Assembly (NCBI GenBank): GCA_040757085.1
Contig: JBFLXJ010000012.1
Span: 1 to 33,919, forward strand
Direction of reading: 5' to 3'
Source of the DNA: Bacillota bacterium
GTDB taxonomy: Bacteria > Bacillota > Sulfobacillia > JACIYH01
Length of the DNA stretch: 33,919 nucleotides
This document shows positions 12,583 through 19,449 of the stretch, piece by piece. The first letter of the stretch is position 1; every line of letters begins with the position of its first letter. The notes beneath the pieces were generated by a model that worked only from the letters and a program-made list of their open reading frames with translations, ran no database searches and was not told the DNA's origin. The position numbers and the translations under genes are program-made.

Positions 12583-14277
12583 TTGCCGGTTTCAGAATTG
12601 ATGGGACAGATGGCGATCCGCATGTGTGTGATCGCCACCATAGCCTTCATCTTCACCAGGTGGCGACCCTTCCGGCGGCTGGTGGTTTCCTGTGCCGACC
12701 GGCGGGAGAAGGTGGCTCTTACCTTCATTTTCGGTGCCCTGGGGATCATGGGGACTTATTCGGGCGTGCCGGTGCTGGGTGCTATTGCCAACCACCGGGT
12801 GGTGGCGGCAGCGGTGGCGGGTCTCCTGGGCGGACCCTGGGTGGGCCTGGGGGCGGGGGCGATCGCCGGGCTGCACCGGTACGCCCTGGGGGGTTTCACC
12901 TGCCTGGCCTGCGGCAGTGCCACCGCGGTGGAGGGCCTCCTGGCCGGTCTGGTGCGGGCGGCCATAGACCGGCGGCGCGGTTCCTGGCGGTTGCGGCCCT
13001 GGATGGGTTGGCTGGTGGGCCTGGTGGGGGAGAGCCTGCACATGGGAATGGTGGTGCTGTTCTCCCGGCCCCTCCTCGAGGCGGTGGCGTTGGTGCAGGT
13101 GATCGCCGCCCCCATGATCCTGGTGAACTCCCTGGGCGTGGCTATCTTCCTCGCTATGCTGGAAGGGGTGCGCGCGGAGGAGGAAAAGGCACAGGCCGTC
13201 CAGACCCACAGGGTACTGGAGGTGGCCGGTCTTACCTTGCCCCACCTCAGGCGGGGACTGGACGAGACCAGCGCCTCTGCGGTGGCCGGGCTCATCGTGG
13301 AGCACACCGGGGTGAGCGCGGTGGAGATCGGGCGGGACGGGGAGGCTCTGGGGAAAGCGGGAGAGATCCCTCCGGGTGCAAGGCCGGTGGAGGCCGAGTT
13401 GCGCTGCGGCCGCGACCCGGTGGGGTGGGTGCGGCTGTACGGATCGTCGGCGGGCGAGCCCGGTTCCACCGAAGTGGCTCTCGCCCGCGGGCTGGCCAGC
13501 CTTTTCTCCGTGCAGCTTGAACTGGGCCACATGGAGCGCCGGGTGGCGCTGGCCACCCGCGATTGCTTGCGGGCGCTCCGCGCCCAGGTCAACCCGCACT
13601 TCCTCTTCAACACCCTGAACACCGTGGTTCACTACTGCCGCTCCGACCCAGAGACGGCGCGACGGCTGATCCTGGACATAGCGGCATTCCTGCGACGCAC
13701 CCTGGTCGAGGAGGCCGATGTGGTACCCCTGTCCCGGGAACTGGAGTACCTGGACGCCTTCCTGGCCATAGAAAGGGCACGCTTCGGGAACAACCTGCGC
13801 GTGATAAAGCGGGTGGCTCCGGAGGTACTGGCCGTGCCCATCCCTTCCTTCAGCCTGCAGCCCCTGGTGGACAACGCCCTGCACCACGGCCTGTGGCCAC
13901 GGGGGGGGCGGGGTACCATCTGGATAGAGGGTGAGCGGGCCGGCCGCCGGGTGCGCCTCACCGTCCGGGATGACGGTGTCGGTTTCGCCACTCGGCCGAT
14001 CACGACCTCCAGTAACGCGTGCGTGTTTCCGGACCATGCCGGTGATGCGTCCACCGGTGCGGCGACGGCGGGTGCTGACGGACATTGCGGCGTGGGACTG
14101 AAGAATTTGCGGGAACGACTGGCGGCGTGTTACGGTAGCGATTTCGGGTTTGAGGTGAAGAGCAGGCCGGGGAAAGGCACAGCCGTGACCATCGCGATCC
14201 CCCTGGCGCCCGTAAATGCCGGGGGAGTGCGGAAGTGGGAGGATGCTTCACTCCAGGCTGCGGGTGGTGGTGGCTGA
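12583..14277 (+). CDS. LytS-type membrane sensor histidine kinase
   Basis: This is a 564-residue sensor kinase. The N-terminal ~190 residues hold the 5TMR-LYT membrane sensor, with the family pattern around ANHRVVAAAVAGLLGGPWVG and a glycine-rich GLHRYALGGFTCLACG. A GAF-like cytoplasmic region follows (about 200-325). The histidine-kinase motif QVNPHFLFNTLN gives phospho-acceptor His339. The HATPase has an N box (LVDNALHHG) and DDGVGF and GVGLKNLRERL glycine boxes, with about 30 residues between the last two, slightly longer than usual. The TTG start has AGGGGTG five bases upstream. The 3' end overlaps the response regulator by 35 bases. LytS/BtsS/YpdA-type kinases respond to pyruvate-like carbon signals or cell-envelope state. 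The CstA neighbour favours the former. Confidence 0.92.
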   Translation: MPVSELMGQMAIRMCVIATIAFIFTRWRPFRRLVVSCADRREKVALTFIFGALGIMGTYSGVPVLGAIANHRVVAAAVAGLLGGPWVGLGAGAIAGLHRYALGGFTCLACGSATAVEGLLAGLVRAAIDRRRGSWRLRPWMGWLVGLVGESLHMGMVVLFSRPLLEAVALVQVIAAPMILVNSLGVAIFLAMLEGVRAEEEKAQAVQTHRVLEVAGLTLPHLRRGLDETSASAVAGLIVEHTGVSAVEIGRDGEALGKAGEIPPGARPVEAELRCGRDPVGWVRLYGSSAGEPGSTEVALARGLASLFSVQLELGHMERRVALATRDCLRALRAQVNPHFLFNTLNTVVHYCRSDPETARRLILDIAAFLRRTLVEEADVVPLSRELEYLDAFLAIERARFGNNLRVIKRVAPEVLAVPIPSFSLQPLVDNALHHGLWPRGGRGTIWIEGERAGRRVRLTVRDDGVGFATRPITTSSNACVFPDHAGDASTGAATAGADGHCGVGLKNLRERLAACYGSDFGFEVKSRPGKGTAVTIAIPLAPVNAGGVRKWEDASLQAAGGGG

Positions 14278-14968
14278 CGACGAGCTCCCGGCCCGGGGGG
14301 AGCTGCGCCACCTGCTGGAGGAAACGGAGCTGGCGGAAGTGGTCGCCGAGGCAGAGTCGGCACAGGAGGCCCTGGCTGCCATCCTGCGCTACCGCCCCGA
14401 TGTTGTGTACCTGGACGTGCGCATGCCCGGGCTGAGTGGCATGGACCTGGCCCGTACGCTGGGCCAGATGACTCGGCCCCCGGTGGTGGTGTTTGCCACG
14501 GCCTACGAGAACTATGCCGTGGAAGCGTTTGGGGTGGGGGCGGTCGATTACATTCTGAAGCCTTTCGAGCCCGCGCAGGTCCTGCGCTCCCTGCTCCGCA
14601 GCCAGGAACGGCTTGGGGGACGGCCGCGGGCGCGCAGCCCCTTGCCCGTCCCCGTGCAGGGGGATGGCGGCATCCGCTTCCTGCGCCCCGAGTCCCTCGT
14701 GTACGTGCGGGCGCGGGGTAAACGGTGCCTGGTGCGTGCGTGCGGGCAGGAGCACGTCTCCCGGCTGAGTCTGCGGGAACTCGAGCGGCGGTTACCTCCC
14801 CAGTTTTTGCGCGTGCACCGCAGCTACATAGTGAACCTGCACCGCGTGGTGGAAGTGCATCCCTGGTTCAGCGGGTCGGTGATTTTGACCCTCGAGGACG
14901 GGGGAAGGGTGCAGGTACCGGTGGGACGCAAGTATACCAGTACTGTACGGGCTGCGCTAGGGATCTGA
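14243..14968 (+). CDS. LytTR-family response regulator
   Basis: This is a 241-residue response regulator. The receiver domain (about 6-120) has the acidic pair Asp12-Asp13, phospho-acceptor Asp58 in VYLDVRMPG, and Lys in DYILKPF. The C-terminal ~100 residues are a LytTR DNA-binding domain, with IRFLRPESLVYVRARGKR, FLRVHRSYIVNL and a final VPVGRKY. ATG at 14243 lies within the kinase gene. Its GGGAGG is immediately adjacent, and ATG 14216 is an upstream in-frame alternative with no ribosome binding site. LytTR domains bind direct repeats about 21 bp apart. Such a pair starts seven bases after this gene's stop, upstream of cstA, so cstA is the likely target. Confidence 0.93.
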   Translation: MLHSRLRVVVADDELPARGELRHLLEETELAEVVAEAESAQEALAAILRYRPDVVYLDVRMPGLSGMDLARTLGQMTRPPVVVFATAYENYAVEAFGVGAVDYILKPFEPAQVLRSLLRSQERLGGRPRARSPLPVPVQGDGGIRFLRPESLVYVRARGKRCLVRACGQEHVSRLSLRELERRLPPQFLRVHRSYIVNLHRVVEVHPWFSGSVILTLEDGGRVQVPVGRKYTSTVRAALGI

Positions 14969-15063: not shown

Positions 15064-15149
15064 CGGAGCGGGAGGTGGGAATGAGCAGGCAGAAATGCGG
15101 GAAGCAGGTCGGGCAGCCGGAAAATTGGTCAGAAAGGAGCGAGAGAACT

Positions 15150-16853
15150 GTGAACAGTGCGCTGGCTCTGGTATTGTCCCTGGCGGCAGGTCTGTTCACG
15201 TACCACGTCTACGCTCGCTACGTTGACCAGCGGATCATCCAGGCTGACGCCCGCAGGGCGACGCCGGCCCGGCTGTATATGGACGGAGTGGATTTCATGC
15301 CCACGAGCAAGCACGTGCTTTTCGGTTACCAGTTCAAGTCCATTGCTGCCCTGGGTCCGGTCACGGGTCCCATCATCGCCATGCAGTGGGGATGGTTGCC
15401 TGCCTTCCTCTGGGTCATTCTGGGTACCATGTTCATCGGATGGGTGCAGGACTACACCAGTTGTATGATCGGAGTGCGGAACGAGGGCCAGACTTTCGGC
15501 GCCCTCAGCTACCGCCTCATTTCTCCCCGGGGCCGCATTACGCTCCTGGCCTTCATTTTCTTCTATCTGATCCTCATCGTGGCGGCATTCGGGAAGATAG
15601 TGGGCGATATGATGGCAGCCGTCCCGTCCGTACCGGTGGCCATCGTGGCCCTTGTGGTGGTAGGGCTGGGAGCCGGCTACCTGATCTATCGGAAGCATGC
15701 CGACATCGTGTACACCACCCTGGGCATGGTGGTGCTGGCCCTGCTGGCCATATGGCTGGGGACCGGTGTCCCGATCAAGGCATCGCCCATGACGTGGGTC
15801 ATATTCGCCCTGGCGTTCTCCTACGCTGGCGCGGTGTTGCCCATATGGCTTTACGGCCAGCCCATCAACTACATCTCATTCTACCTGGTTTTCCTGGGCA
15901 TGATCGGGGCGGGCATCGGTGTCTTCGTGGGACACCCCACCTTCACCATCCCGGCCTTCACCAAATGGACCATCCCCCTGGGCCCCATTTGGCCGCTGCT
16001 GTTCGTCACCGTGGCCTGCGGTGCCATCTCCGGGTGGCACAGCCTGGTCTCCAGCTCGGGTAGTGCCCGCCAGCTGGAGAAAGAAACCGACGCCCGTTAC
16101 GTGGGGGCGGGGGCCATGATTTCGGAGATGGTGCTGGCCACCCTCTCCATCATCATCGCGGCTGCCACCTTCGCCAGTTTCAAAGACTATGGGGCGGCCC
16201 TGGCCAAGGGACCCGCATACATCTTCGCGACGGGGATGTCTGGCCTGCTCAACTTCCTGGGCATTTCCCAGGAGTTCGGCAAGGCTTTTGCCGGTGCCAT
16301 GTACGTCATCCTGGCCATCACCGTCATGCAACTGGTGCTGCGGGTGGCCCGCCTGTCCACCACCGAACTGCTGGGCGACTATATCCCAATCATGCGTAAT
16401 ATGTACGTGACCGCGGCCCTGGTGGCCATCATCTGCTGGGCCCTGATCGCCACCGGTACCTGGCAGTACATCTGGACCCTGTTCGGTGGTTCCAACCAGC
16501 TCATGGCTGCCCTGGCCCTCATGCTGGTGTCGATCTGGCTCAAGCAAACCGGCCGCAACTGGCACTTCACTTTCTGGCCCATGCTCTTTATGTTCGCGAC
16601 CACGGTGTGCGCCCTCGTCCTCACCGGCATCAAGCTATTCAGGGCCCCGGCCCTGCTCCTGGCGGGGAAGATCAAGCCTCCCGCCGGGCAGACCGTTGCC
16701 ATGGCCATCGGTGGTAACTACGTGTCGGGCGTGATCGCCTTCCTGCTGGTGCTGGCAGCCCTGGTCCTGGTGGTGGACGGGTTGCGGGTGTTCTTCGCTG
16801 CCCGGCCCTCGGCGGAAGCGGGGGCGACTCAGGCTTCCAGCACTGCCGACTGA
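15150..16853 (+). CDS. cstA: CstA-family transporter (carbon starvation protein A)
   Basis: This is a polytopic membrane protein of about 567 residues. The family blocks are clear: FMPTSKHVLFGYQFKSIA, ALGPVTGPIIA, WVQDYTSCMIGVRNEGQTFG, GWHSLVSSSGSARQLEKE, and a C-terminal hydrophobic part with FGGSNQLMAALALML. CstA and its relative BtsT import pyruvate or peptides when carbon is scarce, so a pyruvate or peptide role is inferred. GTG at 15150 follows AGAAAGGAGC and gives the usual N terminus (MNSALALVLSL). An in-frame ATG at 15081 with GGAGGTGGGA directly upstream would add 23 polar residues and cannot be excluded. It sits next to a LytS/LytTR pair. The usual small partner YbdD/YjiX is not recognisable downstream. 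Confidence 0.93.
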   Translation: MNSALALVLSLAAGLFTYHVYARYVDQRIIQADARRATPARLYMDGVDFMPTSKHVLFGYQFKSIAALGPVTGPIIAMQWGWLPAFLWVILGTMFIGWVQDYTSCMIGVRNEGQTFGALSYRLISPRGRITLLAFIFFYLILIVAAFGKIVGDMMAAVPSVPVAIVALVVVGLGAGYLIYRKHADIVYTTLGMVVLALLAIWLGTGVPIKASPMTWVIFALAFSYAGAVLPIWLYGQPINYISFYLVFLGMIGAGIGVFVGHPTFTIPAFTKWTIPLGPIWPLLFVTVACGAISGWHSLVSSSGSARQLEKETDARYVGAGAMISEMVLATLSIIIAAATFASFKDYGAALAKGPAYIFATGMSGLLNFLGISQEFGKAFAGAMYVILAITVMQLVLRVARLSTTELLGDYIPIMRNMYVTAALVAIICWALIATGTWQYIWTLFGGSNQLMAALALMLVSIWLKQTGRNWHFTFWPMLFMFATTVCALVLTGIKLFRAPALLLAGKIKPPAGQTVAMAIGGNYVSGVIAFLLVLAALVLVVDGLRVFFAARPSAEAGATQASSTAD

Positions 16854-16931: not shown

Positions 16932-17297
16932 ATGCGCTTCTGGAAACGAGCCTCGCGTCCGGAACCGTCTGGCGAGGGTGGGCAGGTTTCCGGGCGTCCG
17001 GCTGCTGAGCAAGGTCGGGGACGGCAGACCTCGGAGCAGGCGCCCAGGGAGACGGTGGGATCCGCCATCAAGGAGTTCATCTACGGGATGGCTGCCCACG
17101 ACATGGCCCGTTTCGCCCTCAAGACCAGGTCGAGCATGGAACACCTCTTCATCCTCATCACCATGGGCGACCTGCTGGGGGTTCCCATCCTGCCCCCCTA
17201 TTATTCCCTGCGCCTCTTGCCCTATGTGGTGCCCCAGATATCCACCTGGAAGCGCCGGATGCTGAGAGAGAAGGATCTCACGGACGCCATCTACTGA
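16932..17297 (+). CDS. Unrecognised 121-residue membrane-associated protein beside ArsA-like ATPases
   Basis: I do not recognise a family. Residues 1-42 are polar and basic (Arg, Gly, Gln, Glu, Pro) and probably disordered. Residues 43-68 look amphipathic (IKEFIYGMAAHDMARFALK). Residues 69-100 are hydrophobic with internal prolines (HLFILITMGDLLGVPILPPY, then LRLLPYVV). The end is charged (WKRRMLREKDLTDAIY). This suggests a monotopic or hairpin membrane protein. ATG at 16932 follows AAAGGAGAGA with good spacing. Codon use resembles the neighbours, so I believe it is coding. It lies 78 bases after cstA and 131 bases before the first ArsA-like gene, on the same strand, and is a candidate client, receptor or anchor for those ATPases. 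Confidence 0.75.
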   Translation: MRFWKRASRPEPSGEGGQVSGRPAAEQGRGRQTSEQAPRETVGSAIKEFIYGMAAHDMARFALKTRSSMEHLFILITMGDLLGVPILPPYYSLRLLPYVVPQISTWKRRMLREKDLTDAIY

Positions 17298-17428: not shown

Positions 17429-18403
17429 TTGTCACTGGCTCAGTTTTTCCGGGATAATCCCGGCATCCGCTACATCATGTTCGGAGGGAAGGGTGGCCTC
17501 GGTAAGACCACTTTCTCCGCTGCCGCCGCCCACTGGCTGGCCGGTCAGGGCCACCGGGTGCTGGTGTTCTCCGTGGATCCCCAGGCTTCCCTCTCGGATA
17601 TCTTCGAACGGGACATCTTCGGTAAGGGCGAGGTGGAGATAGCACCCAACCTTTATGCCTGCGAGATCGACGCCGACCGGCGCATCCAGGAGTATCAGGA
17701 AGAGGTGCGGCAGAAGATCCGGGACATGTACGGGATAGACCAGATCCCCGACGAGATCGAGAACTACATCAGGGCCGCCTCCGCCGAGCCGGCCATGGAG
17801 GAAAGCGCCATTTTCGACCAGGTGGTGGACATCGTGGTCAAGGGGGGATATGACTACTACATCTACGACCTGGTTCCCCTGGGCCACGCCCTCTACTACC
17901 TGAGCATGGCTTCGGTGTACGATGCCTGGATCACCAAGATCACCGGGCTGCGGGAAGAGATGCGCAAATACGATGCCGTGGTGGCCACCATCCGCCGGGA
18001 GAAGGAAACAGAAGAAGACCGCATCCTCAACGAGCTGATATACATCCGTGACCGCATCAATAAGTCATCTTCCATCCTGACTGACCCCCAGCGCACGGCG
18101 TTCTTCTTCGTGGTAACTCCCGAGGAGATGGTCATCGAGGATACGCTTAAGGCGGCCTCCCTGTTCAGTAAGTATGATGTACCCATCAGGGGGTACGTGG
18201 TAAACCGGGTGGTGCCTTCCGCTCTCCTGGAGCAGGACATCCCCGAGTACCTGCGCAACCGCATCCTCATGCAAAGGGGCAACATGGAGCGCATTCACAG
18301 GGAATTCGCCGGGCGTATCCTGGCCGAGGTGCCGGAGATGGAACGCGACATCCGGGGCATGACCATGATCGCGAAAATGGCCGGCGTCCTGTTCGGCCGG
18401 TGA
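17429..18403 (+). CDS. ArsA/Get3-like ATPase, first of a pair (switch I Asp retained)
   Basis: This is a 324-residue cytoplasmic P-loop ATPase of the SIMIBI/ArsA-Get3 class. The deviant Walker A is MFGGKGGLGKTT, with signature Lys21. Switch I reads FSVDPQASLSD, retaining the Asp (Asp50) equivalent to the catalytic Asp57 of yeast Get3. Switch II reads YDLVPLGHALYYL (Asp147-His153) instead of the usual DTAPTGHTLR. It keeps Asp, Pro and Gly-His but loses the Thr-Ala and Thr. The only cysteine is in YACEID, so the arsenite-binding triad of ArsA and the CxxC of Get3 are absent. TTG at 17429 follows GGGAGG with eight-base spacing. Its stop overlaps or adjoins the second ATPase gene. The role is unknown, and arsenic resistance is unlikely. 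Confidence 0.85.
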   Translation: MSLAQFFRDNPGIRYIMFGGKGGLGKTTFSAAAAHWLAGQGHRVLVFSVDPQASLSDIFERDIFGKGEVEIAPNLYACEIDADRRIQEYQEEVRQKIRDMYGIDQIPDEIENYIRAASAEPAMEESAIFDQVVDIVVKGGYDYYIYDLVPLGHALYYLSMASVYDAWITKITGLREEMRKYDAVVATIRREKETEEDRILNELIYIRDRINKSSSILTDPQRTAFFFVVTPEEMVIEDTLKAASLFSKYDVPIRGYVVNRVVPSALLEQDIPEYLRNRILMQRGNMERIHREFAGRILAEVPEMERDIRGMTMIAKMAGVLFGR

Positions 18404-18420
18404 GGAAGGGGATGGGTCGC

Positions 18421-19445
18421 GTGAGCACCGTGCCAAAGATTTCATTCATCTCGTGGGAGGAATTGGTAAAGGACAGTCTGCTCGAGTTTACCCGCCGCCA
18501 CCCCGATCTGAAATACGTGTTCTTCGGCGGCAAGGGTGGGGTGGGCAAGACGGTCATGGCGGGGGCCGCCGCCCTCTGGTATGCCCGGCAGGGACGCAAG
18601 ACCCTGCTCGCTTCCACCAACCCCGTTCACAGTCTTTCTGCCCTGTTGGGCCAGAACGTCTTCGGGGCAGAGCGCCAGGTGGGGGGTGTCCCGGGGTTTT
18701 ACGCTTACGAGATTGACACTGCCGATACGATTAAGCGGTCCAAGGAGGAGATCCGCGAGAAGATCCGCTGGTTCCTGAAATACGCCGACATCCCCACCGA
18801 GTCGGACGCGTTCGTGGAAACCGCTACCATGAACCCGTCCTTCGAGGAATCGGCCATGTTCGAGAACATGATCAACATCATGTTCGAGGACAAGTATGAC
18901 GTGTACGTCTTCGACACCGCCCCCACGGCCAACGCCCGCAGGCTCCTGGGCATGTCCAGGGTATACTCGCTCTGGGTGGAAAAGATGGTGGAGAGCCGCA
19001 AAGAAGCTCAGGCCATGCGGCTGGCCCTTTCCTTCCGGAAGAAGCAGGAGAAGGATCCCCTCATGGACTACCTGATTTCCTTCCGGAGTCGCATAGTCCA
19101 GGCCAACCGTCTGCTCACGGACGCCTCTCGGACGGCGTTTTACTTCGTGACCCTGCCGGAGGCTCTGCCCATCGCCGTGATCCGGCGGTTCATTGGGTGG
19201 TTCCACGATTTCGGCATCCCCGTGGGGGGCGTGGTGGTCAACGGAGTGATCGATCCCGGAGTCATTTCCACCAGCACGTCGGAGTTCGTGCTCAACCGGG
19301 TACTCATGCAGCAGGAGTACCTGGCCCAGATCAGGGACCTGTTCCCGGACGTGCGGGCGGTGGTGCCTCTCTTCGAAACGGAAGTGCAGGGCCTGAGAAT
19401 GCTGGAAAGAGTCGCGCAAGTGCTCTTCCGCAACAGCTCTTCCGC

Positions 19446-19449
<4 letters not shown>
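18421..19449 (+). CDS. ArsA/Get3-like ATPase, second of a pair (switch I Asp replaced by Asn)
   Basis: This is a 342-residue paralog of the preceding gene. Walker A is FFGGKGGVGKTVMAG (residues 36-44, signature Lys38). Switch I reads LASTNPVHSLS, so Asn67 occupies the position of the catalytic Asp (Get3 Asp57, Asp50 in the neighbour). Codon AAC at 18619-18621 is plain in the sequence. Switch II starts canonically as FDTAPT (from Asp165) but continues ANARRLL, losing the Gly-His. The protein contains no cysteine. It probably binds ATP but hydrolyses it poorly, and may pair with the first ATPase. GTG at 18421 is used because AGGAAGGGG lies nine bases upstream. GTG 18400 (overlapping the previous stop) and ATG 18412 are in-frame alternatives. 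The pyr promoter begins inside its stop codon region. Confidence 0.85.

Follow-up and report, generated by a model that had tools for sequence, protein, structure and literature searches.

Two adjacent Get3/ArsA-type ATPase genes

Two neighbouring genes in the window (the whole stretch of 33,919 nucleotides that was analysed) encode ATPases of the Get3/ArsA type, here called A and B. They are preceded, in order, by genes for a LytS-type kinase, a LytTR regulator, a CstA-family transporter and a CstX-like small protein, and are followed by pyr genes. The relevant features are as follows.

12583..14277, plus strand: LytS-type histidine kinase, BtsS-like (context gene)
14216..14968, plus strand: LytTR response regulator, BtsR/LytR-like (context gene)
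15075..16853, plus strand: CstA-family carboxylate transporter (PF02554, 3.8e-124)
16932..17297, plus strand: CstX-like small protein, a distant relative of cory-CC-star (NF041419); a conserved hydrophobic segment lies close to the C-terminus, and a role as membrane adaptor is proposed
17429..18403, plus strand: protein A, Get3/ArsA-type ATPase of 324 amino acids with a TTG start; canonical switch I Asp and switch II Gly-His
17483..17512, plus strand: P-loop of A, GGKGGLGKTT, with the intradimer ('deviant') Lys21
17576..17578, plus strand: switch I Asp50 codon of A (GAT), in SVDPQAS
17867..17887, plus strand: switch II of A, DLVPLGH (Asp147 to His153)
18421..19449, plus strand: protein B, Get3/ArsA-type ATPase with a switch I Asn; open frame from GTG 18400
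18526..18552, plus strand: P-loop of B, GGKGGVGKT (GGKGGVGKTV with the next residue), intact, with the intradimer Lys38
18619..18621, plus strand: switch I Asn67 codon of B, in STNPVHS, at the position of the catalytic Asp
18913..18933, plus strand: switch II of B, DTAPTAN, with Ala170-Asn171 in place of Gly-His

The open frame of B extends from 18400 to 19449 and comprises 349 amino acids when counted from GTG 18400. The GTG at 18421, preceded by GAGGAAGGGG, is the likelier start because its ribosome-binding site is better, and the numbering of Asn67 is counted from this codon. CstX probably begins at ATG 16932, where a ribosome-binding site is found, rather than at ATG 16860, so that the 24 residues at the head of the longer frame are probably untranslated.

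Both proteins score far above the cut-off of the PF02374 profile (24.3 bits), with 226.7 bits for A (5e-67) and 206.5 bits for B (7e-61), and also exceed that of TIGR00345 (GET3_arsA_TRC40; A 221 bits, B 211 bits, cut-off 135). Across the genome they are the only strong, full-length matches to PF02374, the other seven being short, weak and of the P-loop type. The solved structures nearest to each in sequence are archaeal Get3 proteins.

An earlier, sequence-only reading of this DNA had reported that both proteins keep GGKGG-x-GKT, that A has Asp50 in SVDPQAS together with DLVPLGH, and that B has Asn67 in STNPVHS, retains DTAPT and loses the Gly-His that follows; all of these motifs read as described. 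That reading regarded switch II of A as a variant, which is correct in so far as T-A-x-T is lost, but both the Asp and the Gly-His are kept. It had also noted that the Get3 CxxC and the arsenite-binding cysteines are missing. In accordance with this, neither column of the CxxC is occupied by Cys in any aligned A or B, and the alignments of A and B contain no conserved Cys at all.

Conservation of the active-site asymmetry

In order to sample homologous loci, we scanned one genome per species, which yielded 80 loci from nine named phyla with B proteins of 60-94% identity, and added loci retrieved from three phyla, namely that of the window, Chloroflexota and Thermodesulfobacteriota. The resulting 142 B and 140 A proteins include repeats; the distinct sequences number 129 for B and 126 for A. 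The A-B pairing is found in at least nine bacterial phyla.

At the switch I position in question, 142/142 B proteins have Asn, and all 136 A proteins that cover the site in the alignment have Asp. Two residues past the PT or PL of switch II, every A protein (140/140) carries Gly-His and every B protein (142/142) carries Ala-Asn. The P-loop is intact in all 142 B proteins, and in both A and B the GKGGxGKT form with the intradimer Lys is present wherever the sequence extends over it. The 27 further ArsA/Get3-like proteins of the same set have the switch I Asp without exception. In the most divergent pairs, in which A is 45-49% identical to that of the window, switch II reads DMPPFGH in A and DTAAVAN in B; the remainder of the motif varies, with the Gly-His, the Ala-Asn and the switch I positions staying constant. 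Asp, whose frequent presence at the Asn position of B would have spoken against the sequence-only reading, never occurs there, and the Asn and both switch II dipeptides are conserved down to 40% identity. The occurrence of Asn in 142/142 B proteins across many phyla excludes a chance or lineage-specific substitution.

Among 123 distinct pairs, identity within A and within B falls to 40%, and A and B of the same locus are about 35% identical. At fourteen alignment columns A and B each have an invariant residue, but not the same one, and six of these columns belong to the P-loop, switch I or switch II. As the nucleotide motifs account for 28 of 318 columns, this corresponds to an enrichment with a hypergeometric p of 5e-4, a value that serves as a guide only, since the columns are not independent of phylogeny.

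A separate family of adjacent ArsA-like pairs occurs in the window's phylum (L134-L137); here each of the two proteins has Asp and DTAPTGH. Asymmetry as a general trait of adjacent ArsA-like pairs is excluded by this family.

Pairing and descent of A and B

An adjacent A gene on the same strand accompanies B at 127 of the 129 distinct B loci, and at the other two A is cut by a contig edge. In a few loci the two genes lie further apart than is usual, with a gap of at most 1.3 kb (L023). Searches with A as the query, which are unbiased towards B, recovered A in 8 genomes of the window's own phylum, about 37 of Chloroflexota and about 26 of Thermodesulfobacteriota; B was present in every one of these genomes except one, in which A is cut by the contig end. 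The genes therefore do not occur alone; frequent solitary occurrence would have spoken against the sequence-only reading.

In the phylogenetic tree A and B each occupy one side of a branch (support 100/99 and 100/100) and group jointly as sisters (100/98), and the same deep internal split recurs inside A and inside B. The A and B distances are strongly correlated (r = 0.95, 123 pairs), although a high value is also expected of genes that merely travel together. A and B are thus monophyletic sisters, and a single old duplication, after which the two genes were inherited or transferred together, accounts for the pattern.

The CstA-CstX setting

The genes that are retained with A and B in other loci are those for CstA and for between one and three CstX-like proteins. 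No other neighbour of the pair is as constant as CstX, which lies immediately 5' of A in 108 of the 111 loci whose sequence reaches far enough. In two of the three exceptions CstX is located inside a long open frame of A, and in the third (L036) it is absent. The retrieved DNA includes CstA in 86 of 95 loci; in the other nine CstA lies outside it. With its ArsA homologues, CstA and CstX and without arsR, the locus of the window has the make-up of a CstA-CstX-ArsA operon. This operon context, which the sequence-only reading omitted, is the main clue to the function of the pair.

Operons of CstA, CstX and ArsA, the same gene set as that of the window, were described in 2010 by Castillo and Saier (PMC2963123). 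In two organisms these authors found ArsA genes arranged as adjacent pairs, one of them archaeal, with identities of 25% and 31%; in single-domain proteins, Asn was the only residue that they saw replacing the Asp of the SXD motif. They suggested that the ATPases form homodimers and that CstA is energised through CstX. The operon and the Asp-to-Asn change are therefore already known. PMC2963123 treats the CstA-linked ArsA proteins as one kind, whereas we find two invariant subfamilies with reciprocal active-site changes. Our literature search found no later paper on these operons and, as far as the literature found shows, the novelty lies in the two reciprocal subfamilies, in the fact that they always occur as a pair, and in the way they differ from a single-gene form.

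The single-gene form, which was not set apart from the paired one in PMC2963123, consists of CstX relatives accompanied by one ArsA-like protein (L115-L123) with the canonical motifs STDPAH and DTAPTGHT. In 8 of 9 of these loci CstX ends in Cys-Cys, which fits the NCBI name cory-CC-star, a name for which our search found no paper. None of the common C-termini of CstX proteins from paired loci is Cys-Cys. Comparison of the sequences suggests a link between the Cys-Cys tail and the presence of a single ATPase. The CstX of the window ends in AIY and matches the cory-CC-star profile (NF041419) with 33.7 bits (E 2.7e-8), below the cut-off of 80, and is only a distant relative.

Two further arrangements were observed. 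Loci L131 and L133 (genomes G068 and G190) represent a third subtype, in which CstA is accompanied by a CstX-like protein and by a single ArsA-like protein that has the motifs GKGGTGKT and SxDPAHN; switch II is DTPPTGLT in L133, and the frame of L131 looks broken. An extra CstX gene directly 3' of B, in addition to two upstream, is present in loci L056, L058, L059, L065-L067, L069, L070, L072 and L086-L088, which are mostly from Chloroflexota.

The hydrophobic segment of CstX lies about 31 residues from the C-terminus. Its hydropathy peak of 1.59 is moderate, and it contains a conserved Asp and a conserved Arg; the AlphaFold model of the protein is poor (pLDDT 62). From the hydropathy and the proposal of Castillo and Saier, it is likely that CstX provides the membrane contact.

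The LytS/LytTR pair directly upstream of CstA in the window is as a rule absent beside the cassette in other loci and is outside the conserved cassette. We compared the kinase with the pyruvate site of E. coli BtsS (PMC10653868). Arg72, Arg99 and Cys110 are kept at the same numbers and Ser113 is replaced by Ala. Because the adjacent kinase keeps three of the four pyruvate residues, pyruvate is, by inference, the likeliest substrate of the CstA of the window.

Structural model of the pair

For modelling we used the closest relative of the window locus (L009), in which A and B lie in one frame separated by a single stop, which was read as Ser. The AlphaFold model of this read-through protein has a mean pLDDT of 78 and a pTM of 0.74, obtained with tethered halves and a 33-row alignment. 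It can be superimposed on the two-domain ArsA of E. coli (1ii9) with both halves aligned (Z 28.4, 3.1 A over 518 residues), and Foldseek gives TM scores of 0.63/0.78 against two-domain ArsA. Since the halves were tethered and the alignment was shallow, the model serves as a consistency check, and the A-B contact in it is no independent evidence for a heterodimer.

Comparison with known systems

The best sequence and fold matches of each half are Get3/TRC40 proteins (archaeal 3zq6 and 3ug6, and yeast Get3), with which A and B share the P-loop containing the intradimer Lys. Get3, which hands tail-anchored proteins over to Get1/Get2, is however homodimeric, with the Asp at each site and a zinc CxxC at the dimer interface, whereas A and B are asymmetric and have no CxxC. 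The Get3 signature of a switch I Asp together with DTAPTGH in every protomer is split here, the Asp and Gly-His occurring only in A and DTAPT only in B. ArsA, as known from E. coli and L. ferriphilum, is a two-halved pseudo-heterodimer on which the A-B model overlays; unlike A and B, it is a single polypeptide with arsenite-binding Cys residues, encoded in an ars operon.

Two adjacent Get3-like genes are likewise present in Mycobacterium. Their products BagA and BagB (Rv3679/Rv3680) were solved together (PDB 6bs3, 'bacterial Get3-like A and B') and provide a precedent for a bacterial Get3-like pair. They are distant relatives, the 6bs3 chains matching A at E values of 3e-9 and 7e-4, and on A and B the BagA/BagB models reach at most 54 bits (NF053622, cut-off 400) and 38 bits (NF053621, cut-off 521). 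We know of no link between BagA/BagB and CstA or CstX.

In heterodimeric ABC transporters with a degenerate site, an obligate pair combines one hydrolytic with one ATP-holding site. The analogy with A and B is one of working only, as the ABC and SIMIBI classes do not share the ancestry of their dimers.

A proposed asymmetric ATPase acting on CstA

The switch I Asp serves to align the attacking water, and the intradimer Lys to stabilise charge in the active site (PMC10248533). Asp57 of yeast Get3 is essential for hydrolysis, and the D57N protein binds ATP without hydrolysing it, which traps the ATP state (PMC12506534); D57N is in effect a laboratory mimic of B. The asymmetry, its invariance, the obligate pairing, the single duplication and the operon are established by the sequences; beyond these we infer a heterodimer with a hydrolysis-dead B, for which CstX would be the adaptor, CstA the effector and pyruvate the transported compound. 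Asn in place of Asp does not always abolish activity in P-loop ATPases of this class.

We consider it probable (roughly 0.6) that A and B form a heterodimer in which A hydrolyses and B holds ATP, and which acts through CstX on CstA. The duplication would have taken place before the present spread over phyla, giving rise to two subunits that divide the work. A, which keeps the water-activating Asp and the switch II Gly-His, would provide the hydrolysing site. B should bind Mg-ATP by its intact P-loop and, because Asn replaces the catalytic Asp and Ala-Asn replaces Gly-His, is expected to hold the nucleotide or to hydrolyse it very slowly; it would also supply Lys38 in trans to the site of A. 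The asymmetric dimer would then dock on the small membrane protein encoded just upstream, CstX, and so gate, energise or assemble CstA, whose substrate here is probably pyruvate. The obligate heterodimer with one hydrolytic and one ATP-trapping site, already put forward in the sequence-only reading, fits the ancient duplication, the mirrored trees, the fused model and the behaviour of Get3 D57N.

Alternatively, the heterodimer may be a Get3-like targeting chaperone that binds CstX by its hydrophobic C-terminal part, perhaps CstA as well, for delivery to the membrane and is inactive during transport. The distance of the CstX segment from the C-terminus is near to a tail-anchored layout, CstX is the neighbour most faithfully kept, and among solved structures each half comes nearest to archaeal and eukaryotic Get3. 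Nevertheless, the segment is only moderately hydrophobic and has conserved charged residues within it, both proteins lack the zinc CxxC, and confinement to one operon is not expected of a general targeting factor, so that we regard this role as possible but rather doubtful.

It is unlikely that A and B are separate homodimers with different jobs, conserved together only through a shared operon. Castillo and Saier suggested homodimers for the CstA-linked ArsA proteins (PMC2963123), and a natural A-B fusion, which would prove a heterodimer, was sought among the loci and none was found. Yet neither gene is found without the other, the changes in the two sites are reciprocal, and a homodimer of B would have no catalytic Asp in any site despite its intact P-loop.

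An arsenic or other metalloid pump ATPase split over two genes, as the family name, the overall fold and the resemblance of the fused model to two-domain ArsA might suggest, is ruled out for practical purposes by the lack of conserved Cys in A and B, by the absence of arsB, acr3, arsD and arsR among the neighbouring genes examined, which include CstA and CstX instead, and by scores of 86 and 93 bits against the arsenical pump equivalog (TIGR04291, cut-off 650), with other adjacent ArsA-like pairs in the phylum having Asp in both halves; the sequence-only reading had rejected such a pump as well.

Returning to the A/B heterodimer that acts through CstX, the reason why ArsA-type ATPases are found beside CstA transporters has been a standing question since 2010. 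The pair represents a natural and ancient copy of D57N fixed in one subunit, so that the roles of each site in a Get3-like dimer can be dissected without engineered asymmetry, and it offers clear mutations for finding out what ATP does for a pyruvate-type transporter, be it driving, gating or assembly. More tentatively, the system may be an ATP-controlled secondary transporter, in which an asymmetric Get3-like heterodimer with a timing and a hydrolysing site energises or gates CstA-family pyruvate uptake via CstX. If this is true, ATP-controlled CstA would be to the SIMIBI class what transporters with one degenerate site are to the ABC class.
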